DNA of 64,000 nt from a virus, in the IMG/VR virus record IMGVR_UViG_3300046007_002820, positions 1-64,000 of that record; one strand, 5' to 3'. The notes beneath the pieces are model-generated. The model was not told the origin of the DNA. It saw only the letters and a list, made by a program, of their open reading frames with translations, and made no database searches. Shown here piece by piece: positions 459 to 49,297 of the stretch. The position numbers were made by a program, and so were the translations under genes. Numbering within the stretch: position 1 is the stretch's first letter; each line of letters starts with the position of its first letter.

Positions 459-490
459 ACAGCCTTCGGAGAAATTCGGAGGCTGTTTTT
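459..490 (+). terminator. Rho-independent terminator with GAAA tetraloop
   Basis: ACAGCCTTCGGA (459-470) pairs with TTCGGAGGCTGT (475-486), giving a 12-bp stem with two G-U pairs closed by a GAAA tetraloop and followed by a T run (486-490). It ends the SPFH transcript. The next late promoter begins inside the T run, so one transcript ends where the next starts. Confidence 0.9.
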
Positions 491-516
491 CTAAATATGA
501 CTGAGCTATAGAAAGA
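486..516 (+). promoter_or_regulatory. Late promoter CTAAATA with possible RBS-covering inverted repeat
   Basis: CTAAATA is at 491-497, 25 bp before the ATG of the next gene. The stretch 486-493 can pair with 509-516 (8 bp, one G-U), which contains the weak ribosome site AGAAAGA. The pairing is AT-rich and marginal alone; it gains weight because the same layout recurs at other late genes in this window. Confidence 0.6.
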
Positions 517-3312: not shown

Positions 3313-3340
3313 TTCTAAATATATTTGAATTTGTTTAGGA
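3313..3340 (+). promoter_or_regulatory. Late promoter CTAAATA with RBS-covering inverted repeat
   Basis: CTAAATA lies at 3315-3321. TTCTAAA (3313-3319) can pair with TTTAGGA (3334-3340), which carries the Shine-Dalgarno AGGA of the next gene. The 7-bp pairing has one G-U. A transcript starting about 6 nt after the box would lack the 5' arm and leave the site open. Confidence 0.6.
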
Positions 3341-6969: not shown

Positions 6970-6996
6970 CTAAATATCCTTGAAATACTGCAAGGA
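6970..6996 (+). promoter_or_regulatory. Late promoter CTAAATA leading into RBS-covering hairpin
   Basis: CTAAATA is at 6970-6976. TCCTTG (6977-6982) pairs with CAAGGA (6991-6996) across an 8-nt loop; the 3' arm contains the ribosome site AAGGA of the gene starting at 7007. A late start near 6982 would remove the 5' arm. Confidence 0.7.
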
Positions 6997-7006
6997 ATAA
7001 TAAGAA

Positions 7007-7459
7007 ATGGCAGCTGGCAACTTTACCGTCTTCAACATCGCAAAGTTGAAACTTGTGAACGGTACTCACGATCTAGATACTCATACGTTCAAGATGGTTC
7101 TATGTGCAAACTCTCAAGCGATTGATGCAACGTTCGCCGGATCATCTGCCAACGCCCGCTACGCTGATTTGACTGGTGAAGTCGCTGCGAACGGAACCAA
7201 CGGGTATACGACTGGTGGTAAAACTTTGACTATGTCGGTATCCAGATCTGGAGCGAACGTCGCTGTAGATTGTGATGACCAGTCTTGGACTGGTGCGACT
7301 ATCACTGCCAAATACGCGGTAATTTTCAATGATACTGCTGCTAACGATGATCTGCTTGGATTCTGCGATTTGGAAACCGGTAATGCGACTGGAATTTCTG
7401 CAACTTCGGGAACCATCGCTGTAAACATCAACGCATCAGGTCTATTTACGCTATCATAG
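7007..7459 (+). CDS. Beta-rich phage structural protein (tail/adhesin associated)
   Basis: 150 residues, opening AAGNFTVFNIAKLKLVNGTH and containing a D.HTFKMVL segment, a TTGGKTLT strand pair and a YAVIFND segment. This arrangement is common in phage proteins encoded beside tail-fibre or receptor-binding genes. It has its own late promoter with an RBS-masking hairpin. Two Cys occur late in the protein but are not in a metal-binding arrangement. Structural role likely, exact position in the virion unknown. Confidence 0.55.
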   Translation: MAAGNFTVFNIAKLKLVNGTHDLDTHTFKMVLCANSQAIDATFAGSSANARYADLTGEVAANGTNGYTTGGKTLTMSVSRSGANVAVDCDDQSWTGATITAKYAVIFNDTAANDDLLGFCDLETGNATGISATSGTIAVNINASGLFTLS

Positions 7460-37715: not shown

Positions 37716-37762
37716 TTTTCATTTGAACGAATTTGAAGTATATTGAATTCATAGGAATTCAA
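37716..37762 (+). promoter_or_regulatory. Early promoter, conserved family (variant)
   Basis: TTTTCA (37716-37721), 17-nt spacer, TATATT (37739-37744), followed by GAATTCATAGGAATTC, a variant of the conserved block. Confidence 0.8.
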
Positions 37763-43580: not shown

Positions 43581-43627
43581 TTTACAAGCGAAAGATTTTG
43601 AGGCATATTGAACTCATAGGAATTAGC
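43581..43627 (+). promoter_or_regulatory. Early promoter, conserved family
   Basis: TTTACA (43581-43586), 17-nt spacer, CATATT (43604-43609), followed by GAACTCATAGGAATTAGC and GGAGG. Confidence 0.85.
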
Positions 43628-43643: not shown

Positions 43644-44072
43644 ATGAACGCTACGGAAATTCTTCTCGAAGCCAAGGCTGCGGCGATAGAAGCGGTCCGA
43701 AAGGATATGGTTCGTTTTGATGGAGAAGAGCCTCCGCATATGGAATGCGGCTTTGCTTGGGTCAATCTCTACTACAATCGCAATAAGGCTCCTGCGGCCA
43801 ACGTCGAGTTCATCAAAGCTCTCAAGAAAGAAGCGAAAGCCGCAGGAATTTCTTACGACAGCGCGGGAAATCGAGTCATCTCCAACACCGTCGACCAAGA
43901 TTTGATTCAGGCTTTTGGTCGGCCGGATTATCGCCCCTCGACTTGGCAGTGGTGGAATCCTGGTGAATGTCACTGGCAATATATGCATACCAAGATCGTC
44001 GGCGCTCAGGCTTTCGCCGATGTTCTGAAGTCTCACGGAATTCAGGCGCGCGTTGATTATCGGTACGACTAA
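43644..44072 (+). CDS. Early protein, unknown (conserved pattern)
   Basis: 142 residues. An N-terminal helix is followed by PHMECGFAWVNLYYNRNKAP and a late WQWWNPGECHWQYMHTKIVG segment. The Trp/His-rich pattern recurs in phage proteins of unknown role. Good promoter and ribosome site; probably abundant. Confidence 0.6.
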   Translation: MNATEILLEAKAAAIEAVRKDMVRFDGEEPPHMECGFAWVNLYYNRNKAPAANVEFIKALKKEAKAAGISYDSAGNRVISNTVDQDLIQAFGRPDYRPSTWQWWNPGECHWQYMHTKIVGAQAFADVLKSHGIQARVDYRYD

Positions 44073-44088: not shown

Positions 44089-44310
44089 ATGCCCTATACA
44101 TTGCGCAAGAGATCTATGGTTTCAAATAAATTTCATTCTATGACCTTCGAGAATATTTCCGAAGAAGAATTTCAGAAATGTTTCAAGTTGTGGATGAACG
44201 ATACTCTAATGCAAGATGCCTTTCCGATGCTTTCCGAAGACGAGCGAGAGTTCATCATGACGGGTATTACTCCCGAAGAATGGAATCAGATGTGTCCCGA
44301 CGACGATTGA
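44089..44310 (+). CDS. Small conserved-type phage protein
   Basis: 73 residues, AAGGAG upstream. NISEEEFQKCFKLWM and LSEDEREFIMTGITPEEWNQ suggest a small helical domain, seen in other phages as a short early protein. The next gene is late, so this closes the early run. Confidence 0.55.
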   Translation: MPYTLRKRSMVSNKFHSMTFENISEEEFQKCFKLWMNDTLMQDAFPMLSEDEREFIMTGITPEEWNQMCPDDD

Positions 44311-44311
44311 T

Positions 44312-44342
44312 CTAAATATTCCTGAGTCCATTTCAGGAATAT
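44312..44342 (+). promoter_or_regulatory. Late promoter CTAAATA inside a perfect RBS-covering hairpin
   Basis: CTAAATA (44312-44318) overlaps the 5' arm ATATTCCTGA (44316-44325), which pairs perfectly over 10 bp with TCAGGAATAT (44333-44342). The 3' arm carries AGGA, the ribosome site for TTG 44347. A late transcript starting near 44324 would lose the 5' arm; early read-through RNA would keep it. This is the strongest case in the window. Confidence 0.8.
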
Positions 44343-44346
44343 ATGT

Positions 44347-45675
44347 TTGACTGTTTCCATCGGCGGTAAGCTGAAATCACTAGAGATATCGCTTACGAAA
44401 TACAGCGGCGAGAAAACCATAGATCTTCGGCCATTTATGGTCGATGTTACTATCTATGAAAACATTTTCAATTCGTCTCTTCATGGTGTAATGACCATTG
44501 TAGATGCAGTCGGATTCCTCTCGGGATATGGATTTCCAATCCTTGGCGAGGAACTGTTGACATTTCGGTATGCAATTACCGATGACGCAGTTCCAGAAAA
44601 GATCTTGACATTCTTGGTCTATAAGATCGACAGCGTCGTCAATGCCGAGAATATGAAACATAAGCGGTATCTTCTACGGTTTTGTTCTATCGAAGATCTT
44701 GCAAATTCCACAATTCTGATTCAAAAAGCGTACGATGCTCCGTGTTCGGAAATTGTCAAGAACATCATGGGAGAGTATCTGGCAACTTCTAAGAGTGTGC
44801 AGACGCTTCCAACCAAAGGCGCGCAGAAACTCATCATTCCACAGCTGCGCCCGTTCGACGCGATCGAATTCCTTCGTAGAAGATCCATCTCCGAAAAGAA
44901 ATTCAAAGCTGCCTCCTACGTTTTCTACGAGAACACCGAAGGCTTCATGTTTACAGATATCGAGCAGCTCATAGAACGAGGCTCTAAGAAGGCTGATGAA
45001 GAACCCGACGTATATACCTACTATGTGACCGATGGCTCTCTGCAACGTTCTAATGAGTCTAACACTAGCGAAAACTACAGCGATCCACGATATTACAACA
45101 TTGCGGAATTCAAGACTCTCTTTTCTTTCTCGCAGAATCATCGAACTGATACAATTGAAAGAATCAAGAAGGGTGTATTCCAATCTGTCGTGACGACGTT
45201 CGATCCGGTCAATGTCGAATACAAAGAAAAGACTTTCAAATACAATCCATTCAGATATACGACTCTTTCGCCACAAATCCAACATTCGGCAGAGTTCCAA
45301 TTCGATTTTGCTGGCGCGGATAGCAAAACATCTATGCATCGTAACTTCTATATCATGCAAGACTCGACCGTTCCTGATACACATCTAGATGATATCATTC
45401 CTAATACTGCATCGTATATGACGAATCTAGCTCAGAACATGTTCTCAGCATCTATCATTGGTGATCCAAGAATTCTAGCTGGCGATGTAATTAACATTCC
45501 ATTCATTCCAGCATTTAGAAATCCAGACCAGCTGGGATTAGATGATAAACTGCTTTCGGGTAAATTCTTAGTCGCTGGTATTCGCCACAAGTTCGGTCAA
45601 GAATCTTACGTCTGTGATGTCGAGCTTTTCAAGAATGGTTTCGCGGAAAAGGTAGACTTTCCGTTAGAGCTCTAA
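44347..45675 (+). CDS. gp27: Baseplate hub protein, gp27-like
   Basis: 442 residues (T4 gp27: 391). It begins at TTG 44347, eight bases after AGGA; no in-frame ATG precedes the conserved start. A TVYENIFNSSLHG-like opening (IDLRPFMVDVTIYENIFNSS), SIEDLANSTILIQKAYD and LIIPQLRPFDAIEFLRRRS fit the hub proteins of T4-like marine phages, which form the trimer under the tail tube that holds the spike. Neighbours gp48-like, gp53 and gp5 support this. Confidence 0.75.
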   Translation: MTVSIGGKLKSLEISLTKYSGEKTIDLRPFMVDVTIYENIFNSSLHGVMTIVDAVGFLSGYGFPILGEELLTFRYAITDDAVPEKILTFLVYKIDSVVNAENMKHKRYLLRFCSIEDLANSTILIQKAYDAPCSEIVKNIMGEYLATSKSVQTLPTKGAQKLIIPQLRPFDAIEFLRRRSISEKKFKAASYVFYENTEGFMFTDIEQLIERGSKKADEEPDVYTYYVTDGSLQRSNESNTSENYSDPRYYNIAEFKTLFSFSQNHRTDTIERIKKGVFQSVVTTFDPVNVEYKEKTFKYNPFRYTTLSPQIQHSAEFQFDFAGADSKTSMHRNFYIMQDSTVPDTHLDDIIPNTASYMTNLAQNMFSASIIGDPRILAGDVINIPFIPAFRNPDQLGLDDKLLSGKFLVAGIRHKFGQESYVCDVELFKNGFAEKVDFPLEL

Positions 45676-45702
45676 ATATGTTCAGCATTGTATAGGAACA
45701 TA
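45672..45702 (+). promoter_or_regulatory. Late promoter CTAAATA with RBS-covering inverted repeat
   Basis: CTAAATA (45672-45678) begins over the stop of the hub gene. TATGTTC (45677-45683) pairs with GAACATA (45696-45702); the ribosome site AGGA (45694-45697) is at the edge of the 3' arm, before ATG 45704. Confidence 0.7.
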
Positions 45703-45703
45703 A

Positions 45704-46591
45704 ATGGCTCTTCCAGACCCTCGACAGTTTATCGGCCGGACCGAACTGAAAGGCGCGAAAGCTCAGTCCTTTCCACCAACGATCGACAACGAGATTCAGA
45801 ATTTCTTCGAATTGAAATTCGTCAACTACGATAGAAACGCATCACTCGCAAAAGCCAATGAATCTCCGAACTCTCATACGATCTTCCTTCCGGTTCCGGT
45901 GAATCTTGAAGATACGACGCGTCTAGATTACGGTGAATATCAATCGTTCGGCGGGATCGATAATCTCCTACAACAGGGAACTTCATCCGATATGGCGGCG
46001 ATGGGTGTTGAATCGGCTAAAGGATTCATGCAAGCTATGGCTCTGGCTGGTGCGAAATACGCTCCAGAATTACTATCTTCGGTCATCAAAGATAGAGCAA
46101 GATTAGATGTTTCTGGATTGGCTGGTCGAGCTTCTGCTGTGATCGGAACTTCTGTTGGAGCACTTGCCAACCCAGCTCTGGCTGTCGAGTTTCGAGGAAT
46201 TCAACGCAAAACTTATAATTTCAGCTGGCGTTTCACGCCTCGATCGAAAGCCGAATCCGAAACACTCGCGGCGATCATAGATGCGATTCGATGGAATACA
46301 CTTCCAGAGAAAGTCGCCGGAGACTGGATTCTGACCTACCCGAATATTGCATTCATGCATCTTCACGGTAATCTAGAATATGGTTCTGAAAATGCGAAAC
46401 GACGACTCATTCAGTTTGCGCCACAAGGTGCTGTTTGCGAAGCGATGAATGTTTCCTATAACAATAGTAGCGGTCAACAGAGTTTCTATGAAATTACCGG
46501 CGAACCGATTGAGGTGATTCTAAATTTGGTGTTTGCTGATCGCGGGATCATCTCGAGAAACGAGATTCCGACTGAGAAGTGGAAATCATGA
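45704..46591 (+). CDS. gp48: Baseplate tail-tube cap, gp48-like
   Basis: 295 residues. The C-terminal half NPALAVEFRGIQRKTYNFSW followed by RF.PRSKAESE and an I..IRWNTLPE helix is the tail-tube-like core of gp48; the N-terminal half has an Ala/Gly-rich helical insert. In T4, gp48 caps the hub and gp54 starts the tube. Its stop overlaps gp53 by 4 bp. Confidence 0.75.
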   Translation: MALPDPRQFIGRTELKGAKAQSFPPTIDNEIQNFFELKFVNYDRNASLAKANESPNSHTIFLPVPVNLEDTTRLDYGEYQSFGGIDNLLQQGTSSDMAAMGVESAKGFMQAMALAGAKYAPELLSSVIKDRARLDVSGLAGRASAVIGTSVGALANPALAVEFRGIQRKTYNFSWRFTPRSKAESETLAAIIDAIRWNTLPEKVAGDWILTYPNIAFMHLHGNLEYGSENAKRRLIQFAPQGAVCEAMNVSYNNSSGQQSFYEITGEPIEVILNLVFADRGIISRNEIPTEKWKS

Positions 46592-47193
46592 GATACTTCG
46601 GCACGTTTCCAGTCATAGACTATAACGATCAGCGCGTAGTCAATCTTATCGCGCGCGTGAAAGTCCTAGAGAGCGCAAAGAATGACAGAAGCGTATATCA
46701 TCCGTTTGTTATTCTAGACGGCGAGACGCCTCAGAAAATAGCCTACGATTATTACGGTTCAACCGAATACATTTGGATCATCTTTCTGATGAATAACATC
46801 ATTGATCCGTATTATGAATGGCCTTTATCAACGATTGAGTTTGAAGAATACATCAAGAAGAAATATGGATCATTAGCTGCTGCTCAGAGTGAAATTCTAT
46901 ATTACAAGAAAAAGTCCGACAAATTCTATCTGGATATTTTCGATCCACAAAACTACGTTGCGGAAGCTTCATTTTCAGGGGACGCATCTCGATATACATT
47001 AGTCGAAATCAACAAAGAACTGAAGAAATCAAAAGAGTCTTACGATAGAAATCCAGATGTTTCATATCTTCCAGTTTACGCATACGATGAAGAGCAAATA
47101 CTAAACAATAATAGAAGACACATCAAACTGTTGGATCAGTCTTTCAAGAAAGAAATAGATAGAGAGCTCAAAGCTCTATTGAATGGAAAATAG
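46588..47193 (+). CDS. gp53: Baseplate wedge protein gp53
   Basis: 201 residues from ATG 46588 (ATGA overlap); a GTG at 46579 would add three residues. MRYFGTFPVIDYNDQRVVNL, YHPFVILDGETPQKIAYDYY, then GSTEYIWIIFLMNNIIDPYY-type LysM-like core match gp53, which links wedges around the hub. T4 gp53 is 196 residues. Confidence 0.85.
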   Translation: MRYFGTFPVIDYNDQRVVNLIARVKVLESAKNDRSVYHPFVILDGETPQKIAYDYYGSTEYIWIIFLMNNIIDPYYEWPLSTIEFEEYIKKKYGSLAAAQSEILYYKKKSDKFYLDIFDPQNYVAEASFSGDASRYTLVEINKELKKSKESYDRNPDVSYLPVYAYDEEQILNNNRRHIKLLDQSFKKEIDRELKALLNGK

Positions 47194-47197
47194 ATAA

Positions 47198-49297
47198 ATG
47201 TTCAATCCGACTTGGTTCTTCGGAACTGTTGTTGATAGAGATGATCCGCTCAAACTCGGACGTTGTAGAGTTCGTGTCGACAACATTCATCCTCTAGATA
47301 CGACACTCGTTCCAGACGATTCATTACCATGGGCTATGCCTATTCAATGGATTCAGAGTGCGGCGACGCAAGGTATTGGACATGCTCCAGTAGGACCATT
47401 GCCTGGAACTAGAGTGTTTGGATTCTTCATCGACGGATCAGATTCTCAGATTCCTGTGATGATGGGAACAATCGGCGGTAATATCGGACATTTGACCTTC
47501 CCGTCGGTGACCGAAGAATCTGCTCCAGCGAAAGCTGAAACTCCAACCAAAGAAGCCGAACAGATCGCACCTCTCGGTAATCTGCCGACTGCTGAGAATC
47601 AGAAAGCGGTCGCGCTTGCGAAACGATTGAAAGCTGATCTTGGCTTGACCGATGTTCAGGCTGCTGGAATCGTCGGAAACTTTTTAGTAGAATGTCCTGG
47701 TCTAATCCCGAATCTGAATCAAGGTGGTCGCAAAGGATTGCCAGCGAGCGGAACATCCTCGGGTAAAGGTTATGGATGGGCTCAGTGGGATAATGTACGT
47801 CGTAAAGCCTTCGTTGATTTTTGTGCTCAGCGCAATCTGAATGTTCAGACCGATGAGGCCAATTATCAGTATCTGTTACACGAAGCTCGAACGACTGAAC
47901 GTTCTGCAATTGCTCAATTGAAAACTCAAACGACTATCTCTGGTGCAACCAAAACATTCACAGACAAATTCGAGCGCGCAGGAGTTCCTCATTACGAGAG
48001 ACGCATCGAAGCTGCGACAACTATCTACAAATCATTGACTGGAGCGAACGTCCCTGTTCGTGTAGTTGGTGCATCCGAATCTGCGGACGGAACTAAGACT
48101 GAGCCCGAAAACGTTCCTAACGATATTCCTCCGTCGACTCCAATTGGTCCGGAACCAATCCAACAGTTCCGAGGTGTCTATCCTTTCAACAAATCATATC
48201 GTTCAGAGTCCGGTCATATCATTGAAATAGACGATACACCGAATGAAGAGAGACTGTTTGATTATCATACATCTGGGACTTACACAGAAATCAATGCGCA
48301 GGGTCGTAGAGTCGTCAAGGTTGTCGGTGAAAATTATACGGTAATTGCTCAAGACGATAACCTCTATGTCGAAGGTAGCGTGAACATCTTCGTGAAAGGT
48401 AATATGTCGGCGAAGGTCAATGGTAACCTCGCTGCTGATGTTGGTGGAGATGTGTCGACACGCGCTGCTGGCGCGATACGAATGCAAGGTGCTGAAGTGT
48501 TCATCGAGTCTTTAGGCGAAATGAATATCAAGGCTGGTGGAAATCTATACATCGATTCTCCTGAAACAGATTTTGCTGATGCTGCCGGAGCAGGTATCTC
48601 GATCGCAATGAATCCTGATGATTTAGCCTTCTTGATTGACGACGATGAAACAGGAGTCGCTCTGAAAGAAGCTCAAGATGCAGGCCTCATTCCGACTGAT
48701 CTAGCAACTGTCATGGAAGATGAAGTTCCGGTCGAAGAAGCGACGGCTGAAGAAAAAGTCGAACCAGAGAAAATCTCGGGCGATTGTGGTGGATTAGATC
48801 AAGAAGAGGATCCTGATCCAAATACCAAGATCTCGAAATACTACAGACTTGCGAGTCTCACAACGCTTCCTCCTGCATCTAGAACAGCGCTGGCTGCTCA
48901 GAAGGGATTGACGAAAGGTCAAATTGCTTGCAATCTTTCCCTACTTGCGAAGAACTGTCTCGATAAGATCAAAGAGAAATACCCGAATATGATAGTCACT
49001 TCTGGATTCAGAGCTGCTCCTGGAAAGAATCCTGGCTCTGATCATCTACTCGGTAAGGCTGTTGATATACAATTCTCCGGAGTTTCCAACGAAGGCTATA
49101 CTGAGATTGCGAAATGGATTCGAGATTATTCTGGAATTCCATATGATCAGATGCTGTTAGAGCATAAGGATACTCAATCGAAAAAATCCTGGATTCACAT
49201 TTCATATCGTAAAGAAGGTAATCGTCAGCAGACGAAGACGTTCTTCAACCATAGACCTTACCGAGATGGACTCGTCGGGAGATCAGCTGTTGTCTGA
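47198..49297 (+). CDS. gp5: Tail spike gp5 with lysozyme domain and added M15-type peptidase domain
   Basis: 699 residues (T4 gp5: 575). Order: OB-fold (about 1-105, WFFGTVVDRDDPLKLGRCRV), tail-lysozyme domain (about 130-280; GIVGNFLVECPGLIPNLNQG with likely catalytic Glu165), linker, triple-beta-helix spike (about 325-465; VVGENYTVIAQDDNLYVEGS), an acidic linker, and a C-terminal domain (about 545-699) with SGFRAAPGKNPGSDH, GKAVDI and WIHISY. The last three give His616, Asp623 and His667, the zinc pattern of M15/DD-peptidase-fold enzymes. The spike would therefore carry two wall-cutting activities. Only the first is known from T4. Confidence 0.85.
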   Translation: MFNPTWFFGTVVDRDDPLKLGRCRVRVDNIHPLDTTLVPDDSLPWAMPIQWIQSAATQGIGHAPVGPLPGTRVFGFFIDGSDSQIPVMMGTIGGNIGHLTFPSVTEESAPAKAETPTKEAEQIAPLGNLPTAENQKAVALAKRLKADLGLTDVQAAGIVGNFLVECPGLIPNLNQGGRKGLPASGTSSGKGYGWAQWDNVRRKAFVDFCAQRNLNVQTDEANYQYLLHEARTTERSAIAQLKTQTTISGATKTFTDKFERAGVPHYERRIEAATTIYKSLTGANVPVRVVGASESADGTKTEPENVPNDIPPSTPIGPEPIQQFRGVYPFNKSYRSESGHIIEIDDTPNEERLFDYHTSGTYTEINAQGRRVVKVVGENYTVIAQDDNLYVEGSVNIFVKGNMSAKVNGNLAADVGGDVSTRAAGAIRMQGAEVFIESLGEMNIKAGGNLYIDSPETDFADAAGAGISIAMNPDDLAFLIDDDETGVALKEAQDAGLIPTDLATVMEDEVPVEEATAEEKVEPEKISGDCGGLDQEEDPDPNTKISKYYRLASLTTLPPASRTALAAQKGLTKGQIACNLSLLAKNCLDKIKEKYPNMIVTSGFRAAPGKNPGSDHLLGKAVDIQFSGVSNEGYTEIAKWIRDYSGIPYDQMLLEHKDTQSKKSWIHISYRKEGNRQQTKTFFNHRPYRDGLVGRSAVV

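Follow-up and report, generated by a model that had tools for sequence, protein, structure and literature searches.

The lysis gene of phage T4 is controlled by a trick in which RNA structure hides the ribosome site on the wrong transcript, and in T4 this control is known mainly from lysis, recombination and homing genes. In T4 e, soc and 49, the RNA structure has a late promoter encoded by its 5' strand and the Shine-Dalgarno (SD) sequence on its 3' strand, which is also the arrangement described here. The homing endonuclease genes I-TevI, segB and Aeh1 mobE share the same geometry. The T4 baseplate genes 25 and 26 are named among the genes with a sequestered ribosome site in an excerpt of one review (PMC2988022). 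Early promoters between genes of T4-like phages, as at the locus studied here, are carried by PeSL (promoter-early stem-loop) cassettes. Here we describe a locus of this general type before the baseplate hub gene of a T4-like phage related to Caulobacter phage Cr30.

Results

A hairpin over the ribosome site of the hub gene

The window, the 64,000-nucleotide stretch of DNA that was analysed, belongs to a virus record of 64,324 bases from a T4-like phage. The product of its hub gene is 47% identical to the hub of Cr30, its nearest named relative. A first-pass annotation had described a perfect 10-bp stem before this gene with AGGA in its 3' arm, and this inverted repeat is present at 44316-44325/44333-44342 with a loop of 7 nt (Table 1). 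The AGGA, at 44335-44338, lies 8 nt 5' of the TTG start at 44347. The annotation had also placed CTAAATA over the 5' arm; the two do overlap, but the promoter (44312-44318) shares just the first 3 nt of the arm. Both hub orthologs (window 44347, Cr30 123496) appear to begin with TTG, a weak start codon, and because of this codon the exact hub start is less certain.

Table 1 Features of the hub locus and of other late-promoter sites in the window
Feature	Position	Strand	Basis or remark
CTAAATA behind intrinsic-type terminator (491)	486..516	+	hairpin within chance
CTAAATA at 3315 with weaker stem	3313..3340	+	
CTAAATA (6970-6976) with 6-bp stem TCCTTG/CAAGGA over SD of gene at 7007	6970..6996	+	
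Early-promoter family copies	36267, 37125, 37743, 38387, 40872, 43608, 49590	+	
Early-type (sigma-70-like) promoter TTTACA-17-CATATT, member of 7-copy family	43581..43609	+	runs on into conserved TTGAACTCATAGGAATTA
142-aa ORF (phrog_22149, unknown function), first gene of presumed early unit	43644..44072	+	
73-aa ORF (phrog_20898, unknown function)	44089..44310	+	stop codon ends 1 nt 5' of late promoter
Late-type promoter CTAAATA (-12 to -6)	44312..44318	+	sequence, 7-mer enrichment; spacing from an excerpt of PMC1524935
Hairpin 5' arm ATATTCCTGA	44316..44325	+	inverted repeat; predicted late +1 G44324 inside
Hairpin 3' arm TCAGGAATAT	44333..44342	+	inverted repeat; contains SD AGGA
Baseplate hub gene (gp27-like, phrog_350), TTG start	44347..45675	+	Cr30 ortholog 47% identical
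Late-type promoter CTAAATA overlapping hub stop codon TAA	45672..45678	+	
7-bp hairpin (45677-45683/45696-45702) partly burying AGGA of next gene	45677..45702	+	
Baseplate tail-tube cap (gp48/54-like, phrog_230)	45704..46591	+	Cr30 ortholog 49.5% identical
Baseplate wedge gp53-like gene, overlaps preceding gene	46579..47193	+	without promoter or hairpin
Baseplate hub/tail lysozyme gp5-like gene	47198..49297	+	without promoter or hairpin here; both in Cr30 and L015

All ten pairs of the hub stem have a predicted probability of 0.87-1.00, even within an 834-nt RNA that reads through from the presumed early start, in which the hub SD is predicted to be at most 1% unpaired. If transcription begins at the predicted late start, the cost of opening the SD falls from 8.8 to 1.1 kcal/mol. 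When the spacer was shuffled 500 times with promoter and SD held fixed, this effect was matched by none of the shuffles (0/500). The e/soc-type reading that the annotation gave the site receives good support from our results: a late-type promoter, a predicted late start in the 5' arm and a buried ribosome site are all found, with further support from an early-promoter copy 704 nt upstream and from the same arrangement at the Cr30 hub ortholog.

CTAAATA as a late promoter

CTAAATA occurs 12 times in the whole window against 7.3 expected, so its count is unremarkable. Nine of the 12 copies precede a called gene by 18-62 nt, an enrichment of about 14-fold that makes it the top 7-mer in a search with no prior motif. 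The top upstream 7-mer is likewise CTAAATA in Aeh1 (26/43) and phiM12 (13/26); it is ATAAGTA in Cr30 (10/16) and ATAAATA in T4 (24/65). The Cr30 late promoter appears to have diverged to ATAAGTA/CTAAGTA, with CTAAATA kept before genes 18, 22 and 23.

The Aeh1 late promoter is CTAAATA beginning at -12, according to an excerpt of its description (PMC1524935). Assuming this spacing, T-G-A stands at exactly -1 to +2 in five of the 12 window sites (491, 3315, 6970, 12371 and 44312). The -12 spacing and the T-G-A together therefore make G44324, the ninth base of the 5' arm, the predicted +1. Among the genomes compared, T-G-A at +1 was found in the window and Cr30 only and was absent from the other six.

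Other CTAAATA sites in the window

The first-pass annotation had proposed the same geometry at four more sites and a scan of all CTAAATA sites for paired ribosome sites. In spacer shuffles at these and two further sites, we find the hairpins at 44312 and 6970 solid, the latter with 4/500 shuffles reaching the observed value. Those at 45672 (51/500 with a fixed SD window, 6/200 with an explicit SD position) and 3315 (53/500 and 23/200, respectively) are modest. The fourth, at 486-516, is unsupported: its 6-bp hairpin of -1.3 kcal/mol at CTAAATA 491 is reached by 185/500 shuffles and lies within chance. Two sites that the annotation had not listed, 10388 (58/500) and 43578 on the minus strand (265/500), are also without a supported hairpin. 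The summed effect of the window sites without 44312 was matched by 2/500 shuffles. At 453-490, a terminator-like hairpin and T run lie immediately 5' of CTAAATA 491.

A scan of T4-like genomes

To every qualifying late-type site we assigned two SD opening costs, one in RNA from the promoter and one in RNA from +1, and took the excess of the first over the second as the gain. Sites qualified if an SD-bearing start lay 26-65 nt downstream, 200 shuffles gave the expected numbers, and a gain of at least 3 kcal/mol was counted as a hit. The requirement for an SD-bearing start removed 5/12 sites in the window, 11/26 in Cr30, 44/65 in T4, 10/26 in phiM12, 18/43 in Aeh1, 12/26 in pf16, 31/51 in RHph_I1_18 (RHph) and 35/59 in Melnitz. 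The window sites left out include 491 and 10388, which the 500-shuffle test covers.

Hits were found at 4/7 sites in the window (0.33 expected), 4/15 in Cr30 (0.34), 9/16 in phiM12 (2.35), 5/21 in T4 (1.77) and 3/20 in RHph (1.08), and in each of these genomes the summed gain was reached by 0/200 shuffles. Melnitz was marginal (1/24 sites, 0.38 expected; sum reached by 5/200). There was no excess in pf16 (1/14, 0.51 expected; 35/200) or Aeh1 (1/25, 0.71 expected; 89/200), where the single match is a hypothetical gene amid tRNA genes.

T4 served as the positive control. The four best T4 sites of the scan are e, I-TevI, 49 and segB, which excerpts of two reviews describe as cases of this control (PMC2988022, PMC3014915); the fifth is gene 4, and soc is missing from the listed T4 hits. 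Seven hairpin genes of phiM12 were looked up: five carry endonuclease or DNase annotations (HNH, GIY-YIG or mobE), one is a tail sheath gene and one hypothetical. RHph has three: one for an endonuclease, one lysozyme-like and one hypothetical. The endonuclease-gene hairpins in these Rhizobiales T4-like phages are at 192232 (-), 20807 (+), 66055 (-), 78716 (+) and 95591 (-) in phiM12 and at 154332 (+) in RHph.

Hairpins in relatives

Behind an ATAAGTA promoter, the Cr30 hub shares the 8-bp core of the window stem, ATTCCTGA/TCAGGAAT, but its loop differs. The stems at the tail-tube cap have unrelated arms (AATCCTGA/TCAGGATT in Cr30 versus TATGTTC/GAACATA in the window). Further Cr30 stems are found at 114220 and at gene 5 (121814), and the Cr30 hairpins at 127601 and 123534 are near-copies of one another.

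In a third relative, the metagenomic contig L015, the hub overlaps gp53, directly behind late genes, and has neither promoter nor hairpin. Gene 5 of L015, the product of which is 52% identical to that of the window over 97 aa, comes after a small ORF that has a promoter-like sequence, and it carries ATAAGTA and a stem, ATTCTCAC/GTGAGAAT. The L015 tail-tube cap (2533) has TTAAATA, no ribosome-site hairpin and a terminator upstream. In phiM12, the inverted repeat made by the facing late promoters of gp48 and a plus-strand gene (72701-72717) pairs with the ribosome regions of both genes; the gp48 hairpin exists only because these two promoters face each other.

Across six hairpins set in one alignment, the paired share of cells is 79%, a value reached by 1/500 shuffles, and slid registers give at most 52%; since the six were picked for having hairpins, their changed letters with kept pairing give no unbiased rate. 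Hairpin pairing is conserved at the Cr30 hub and tail-tube cap and at L015 gene 5, with compensating changes among the aligned hairpins. When viral contigs were searched for exact matches to the hub stem, 57 stretches were returned, among which Cr30 alone joined it to a late-type promoter and a gene start. A single-protein search for hub relatives gave no match, and a query with the wedge protein matched only a short contig, at 100% identity.

Early promoters and early/late junctions

Because a loose early-promoter pattern hardly exceeded its reversed-sequence control (26 to 19 in Cr30, 7 to 5 in the window), we relied on conserved promoter families. The window family comprises seven near-identical copies of CTTT(A/T)C-N-GTATATTGAACTCATAGGAATTA, each before the SD of a small ORF; the copies at 37743 and 49590 have one core change each, and 43608 has CATATT. 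The conserved initially transcribed stretch of the family, TTGAACTCATAGGAATTA, sits just 5' of the small-ORF ribosome sites. The copy at 43608, 704 nt upstream of the hub site, heads a predicted unit that runs into the hub, and the only plus-strand terminator-like site between it and the hub hairpin is a weak one at 43734. The Cr30 family has the form TTTACTT-N-TATAGTTCATTAT and variants, with 13 members retained for the linkage test. Its members at 128080, 124691 and 122125 stand before the small genes that precede the tail-tube cap, the hub and gene 5, respectively.

The first-pass annotation had taken the hairpins for a general switch that silences late genes located downstream of early ones. 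The baseplate block favours this: for hub, 54, 53 and 5 in the window, Cr30, L015 and phiM12, a late promoter with hairpin is present at 5/5 early-cassette junctions versus 2/11 other genes (Fisher p = 0.005, in a post hoc test in which only L015 gene 5 was inspected after the junction idea arose). The two exceptions are window 45672 and, through its facing promoters, phiM12 gp48. These counts take L015 2533 as the tail-tube cap; with the L015 tail-tube cap scored as a junction they become 5/6 versus 2/10 (p = 0.024).

The wider picture lends the generalization less support. Across all tested late sites of the window and Cr30, a hairpin is present at 4/6 early-linked versus 4/16 unlinked sites (Fisher p = 0.096; 0.046 to 0.167 at other cut-offs, uncorrected), and hairpins also occur within late runs. 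A coarser test, on the strand of the upstream gene, gave a null result (p = 0.48); its gene calls were crude and included opposite-strand ORFs that the Cr30 annotation lacks. Upstream of 6970, 3315 and Cr30 114220, no member of these promoter families was found within the range tested, and the Cr30 late sites 118747 and 31730 are directly behind early promoters yet have no strong hairpin. That the hairpin accompanies every late gene below an early one is only suggested by these data.

Discussion

We consider it probable that a T4-like (gp55-type) late promoter is built into the 5' arm of a hairpin that hides the hub ribosome site, forming a switch of the e/soc kind. This reading is based on the sequence arrangement, its statistics and its recurrence in related phages. 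From these we infer which ends the transcripts have, how they fold in vivo and how translation is affected; the upstream early promoter, read-through from it and the late +1 are predicted. Early RNA from about 43,600 would run through two small genes, carry both arms and fold, leaving the hub untranslated. Late RNA from about G44324 would retain 2 nt of the 10-nt 5' arm, leaving the ribosome site open. The 5' arm would be triple-coded, as promoter -10 element, as initiator T-G-A and as the TCCT that pairs with the SD.

The weaker copy at 45672 may act alike on the tail-tube-cap gene. Its 5' arm directly follows the hub stop, so ribosomes finishing the hub could open it, and the hub hairpin would then gate both genes. 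Genes 53 and 5 either overlap the gene before them or lie close behind it, so a single closed hairpin could shut off the entire module early. More tentatively, and with rather less than even confidence, we propose that in Cr30-like phages the hairpin is a standard insulator: whenever a cassette of small genes led by an early promoter enters the late baseplate operon, the late gene that follows would gain this device or a terminator. The device may also be duplicated and travel with the cassettes, as the Cr30 near-copies at 127601 and 123534 suggest.

A somewhat unlikely alternative is that the hairpin silences any longer transcript, late ones included, or couples translation to the upstream gene, with no specific early/late switch. 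In the coupling form, ribosomes ending on the upstream gene would open the hairpin, and the gene's own promoter would yield free mRNA. The sites 45672, 6970, 3315 and Cr30 114220 do sit behind late or apparently late genes, and stop codons fall 1-25 nt before, or within, these promoters. At the three that have no upstream early unit (6970, 3315 and Cr30 114220), either coupling or insulation against longer late transcripts is as likely as the switch. However, the strongest cases in the baseplate block are at early-cassette junctions (5/5), and the known T4 cases are on early or middle transcripts, judging from our scan and from excerpts of the reviews (PMC2988022, PMC3014915).

That the stem is instead an intrinsic terminator, ending early transcripts before the hub, is improbable. 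Terminators do precede other late promoters (window 491; L015 at 2152), and T-rich stretches follow the stems of some relatives (phiM12 192232, Cr30 121814). The hub stem, however, is A+T-rich, its 3' arm sits on the ribosome site, and 44316-44342 is followed by ATGTTTG and absent from the list of the terminator scan; with no G+C-rich stem and T run there, we rejected this reading.

We also rejected, as very unlikely, the reading of the inverted repeat as a DNA operator, bound by a protein that shuts off the late promoter. I-TevI binds over its own late promoter in this way (PMC2988022, in excerpt), and TCCTGA-N7-TCAGGA recurs at the window hub, the Cr30 hub and the Cr30 tail-tube cap. The shared core is nevertheless explained by TCCT and the initiator TGA, and pairing is kept with different arm sequences at window 45672, Cr30 114220 and 121814, and L015. 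Chance, through short A+T-rich spacers that pair readily with the ATAT of CTAAATAT, is scarcely credible, for although 491, 10388 and 43578 fail to beat shuffles and Aeh1 (89/200) and pf16 (35/200), with the same late-promoter type, show no excess, 44312 and 6970 beat them individually, the set without 44312 is reached by 2/500, and the sums of the window, Cr30, phiM12, RHph and T4 by 0/200 each.

The e/soc-type switch is our preferred reading of the hub site. Its mechanism is known from T4; what is new is its use on core baseplate targets in the Cr30-like lineage, with a changed promoter. A possible link of the hairpin to early-cassette insertion is new as well. No title or abstract listed in the literature searched, which includes few subscription journals, described such a hairpin for Cr30-like phages. 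In this distant branch, where the promoter has diverged, the hairpin stands on central genes of the baseplate, and its position follows that of early gene cassettes. This suggests a testable explanation of how early genes can be tolerated in the late operons of T4-like phages. If the insulator proposal is true, early cassettes could enter late operons with no disturbance to the timing of virion assembly. The scan is a simple route to such switches in any phage genome.

The locus differs from T4 e, soc and 49 in its promoter, CTAAATA instead of TATAAATA, and in acting on a core baseplate gene that starts at TTG. The T4 baseplate genes 25 and 26 we take not to be orthologs of the hub or the tail-tube cap. 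The PeSL cassettes are described as composite promoter-terminator motifs, whereas the present stem would cover a ribosome site and shares sequence with a late promoter. Among the hairpin genes looked up in phiM12 and RHph, 6/10 have an endonuclease annotation; in contrast, none of the four scanned hairpin genes of the window is an endonuclease.
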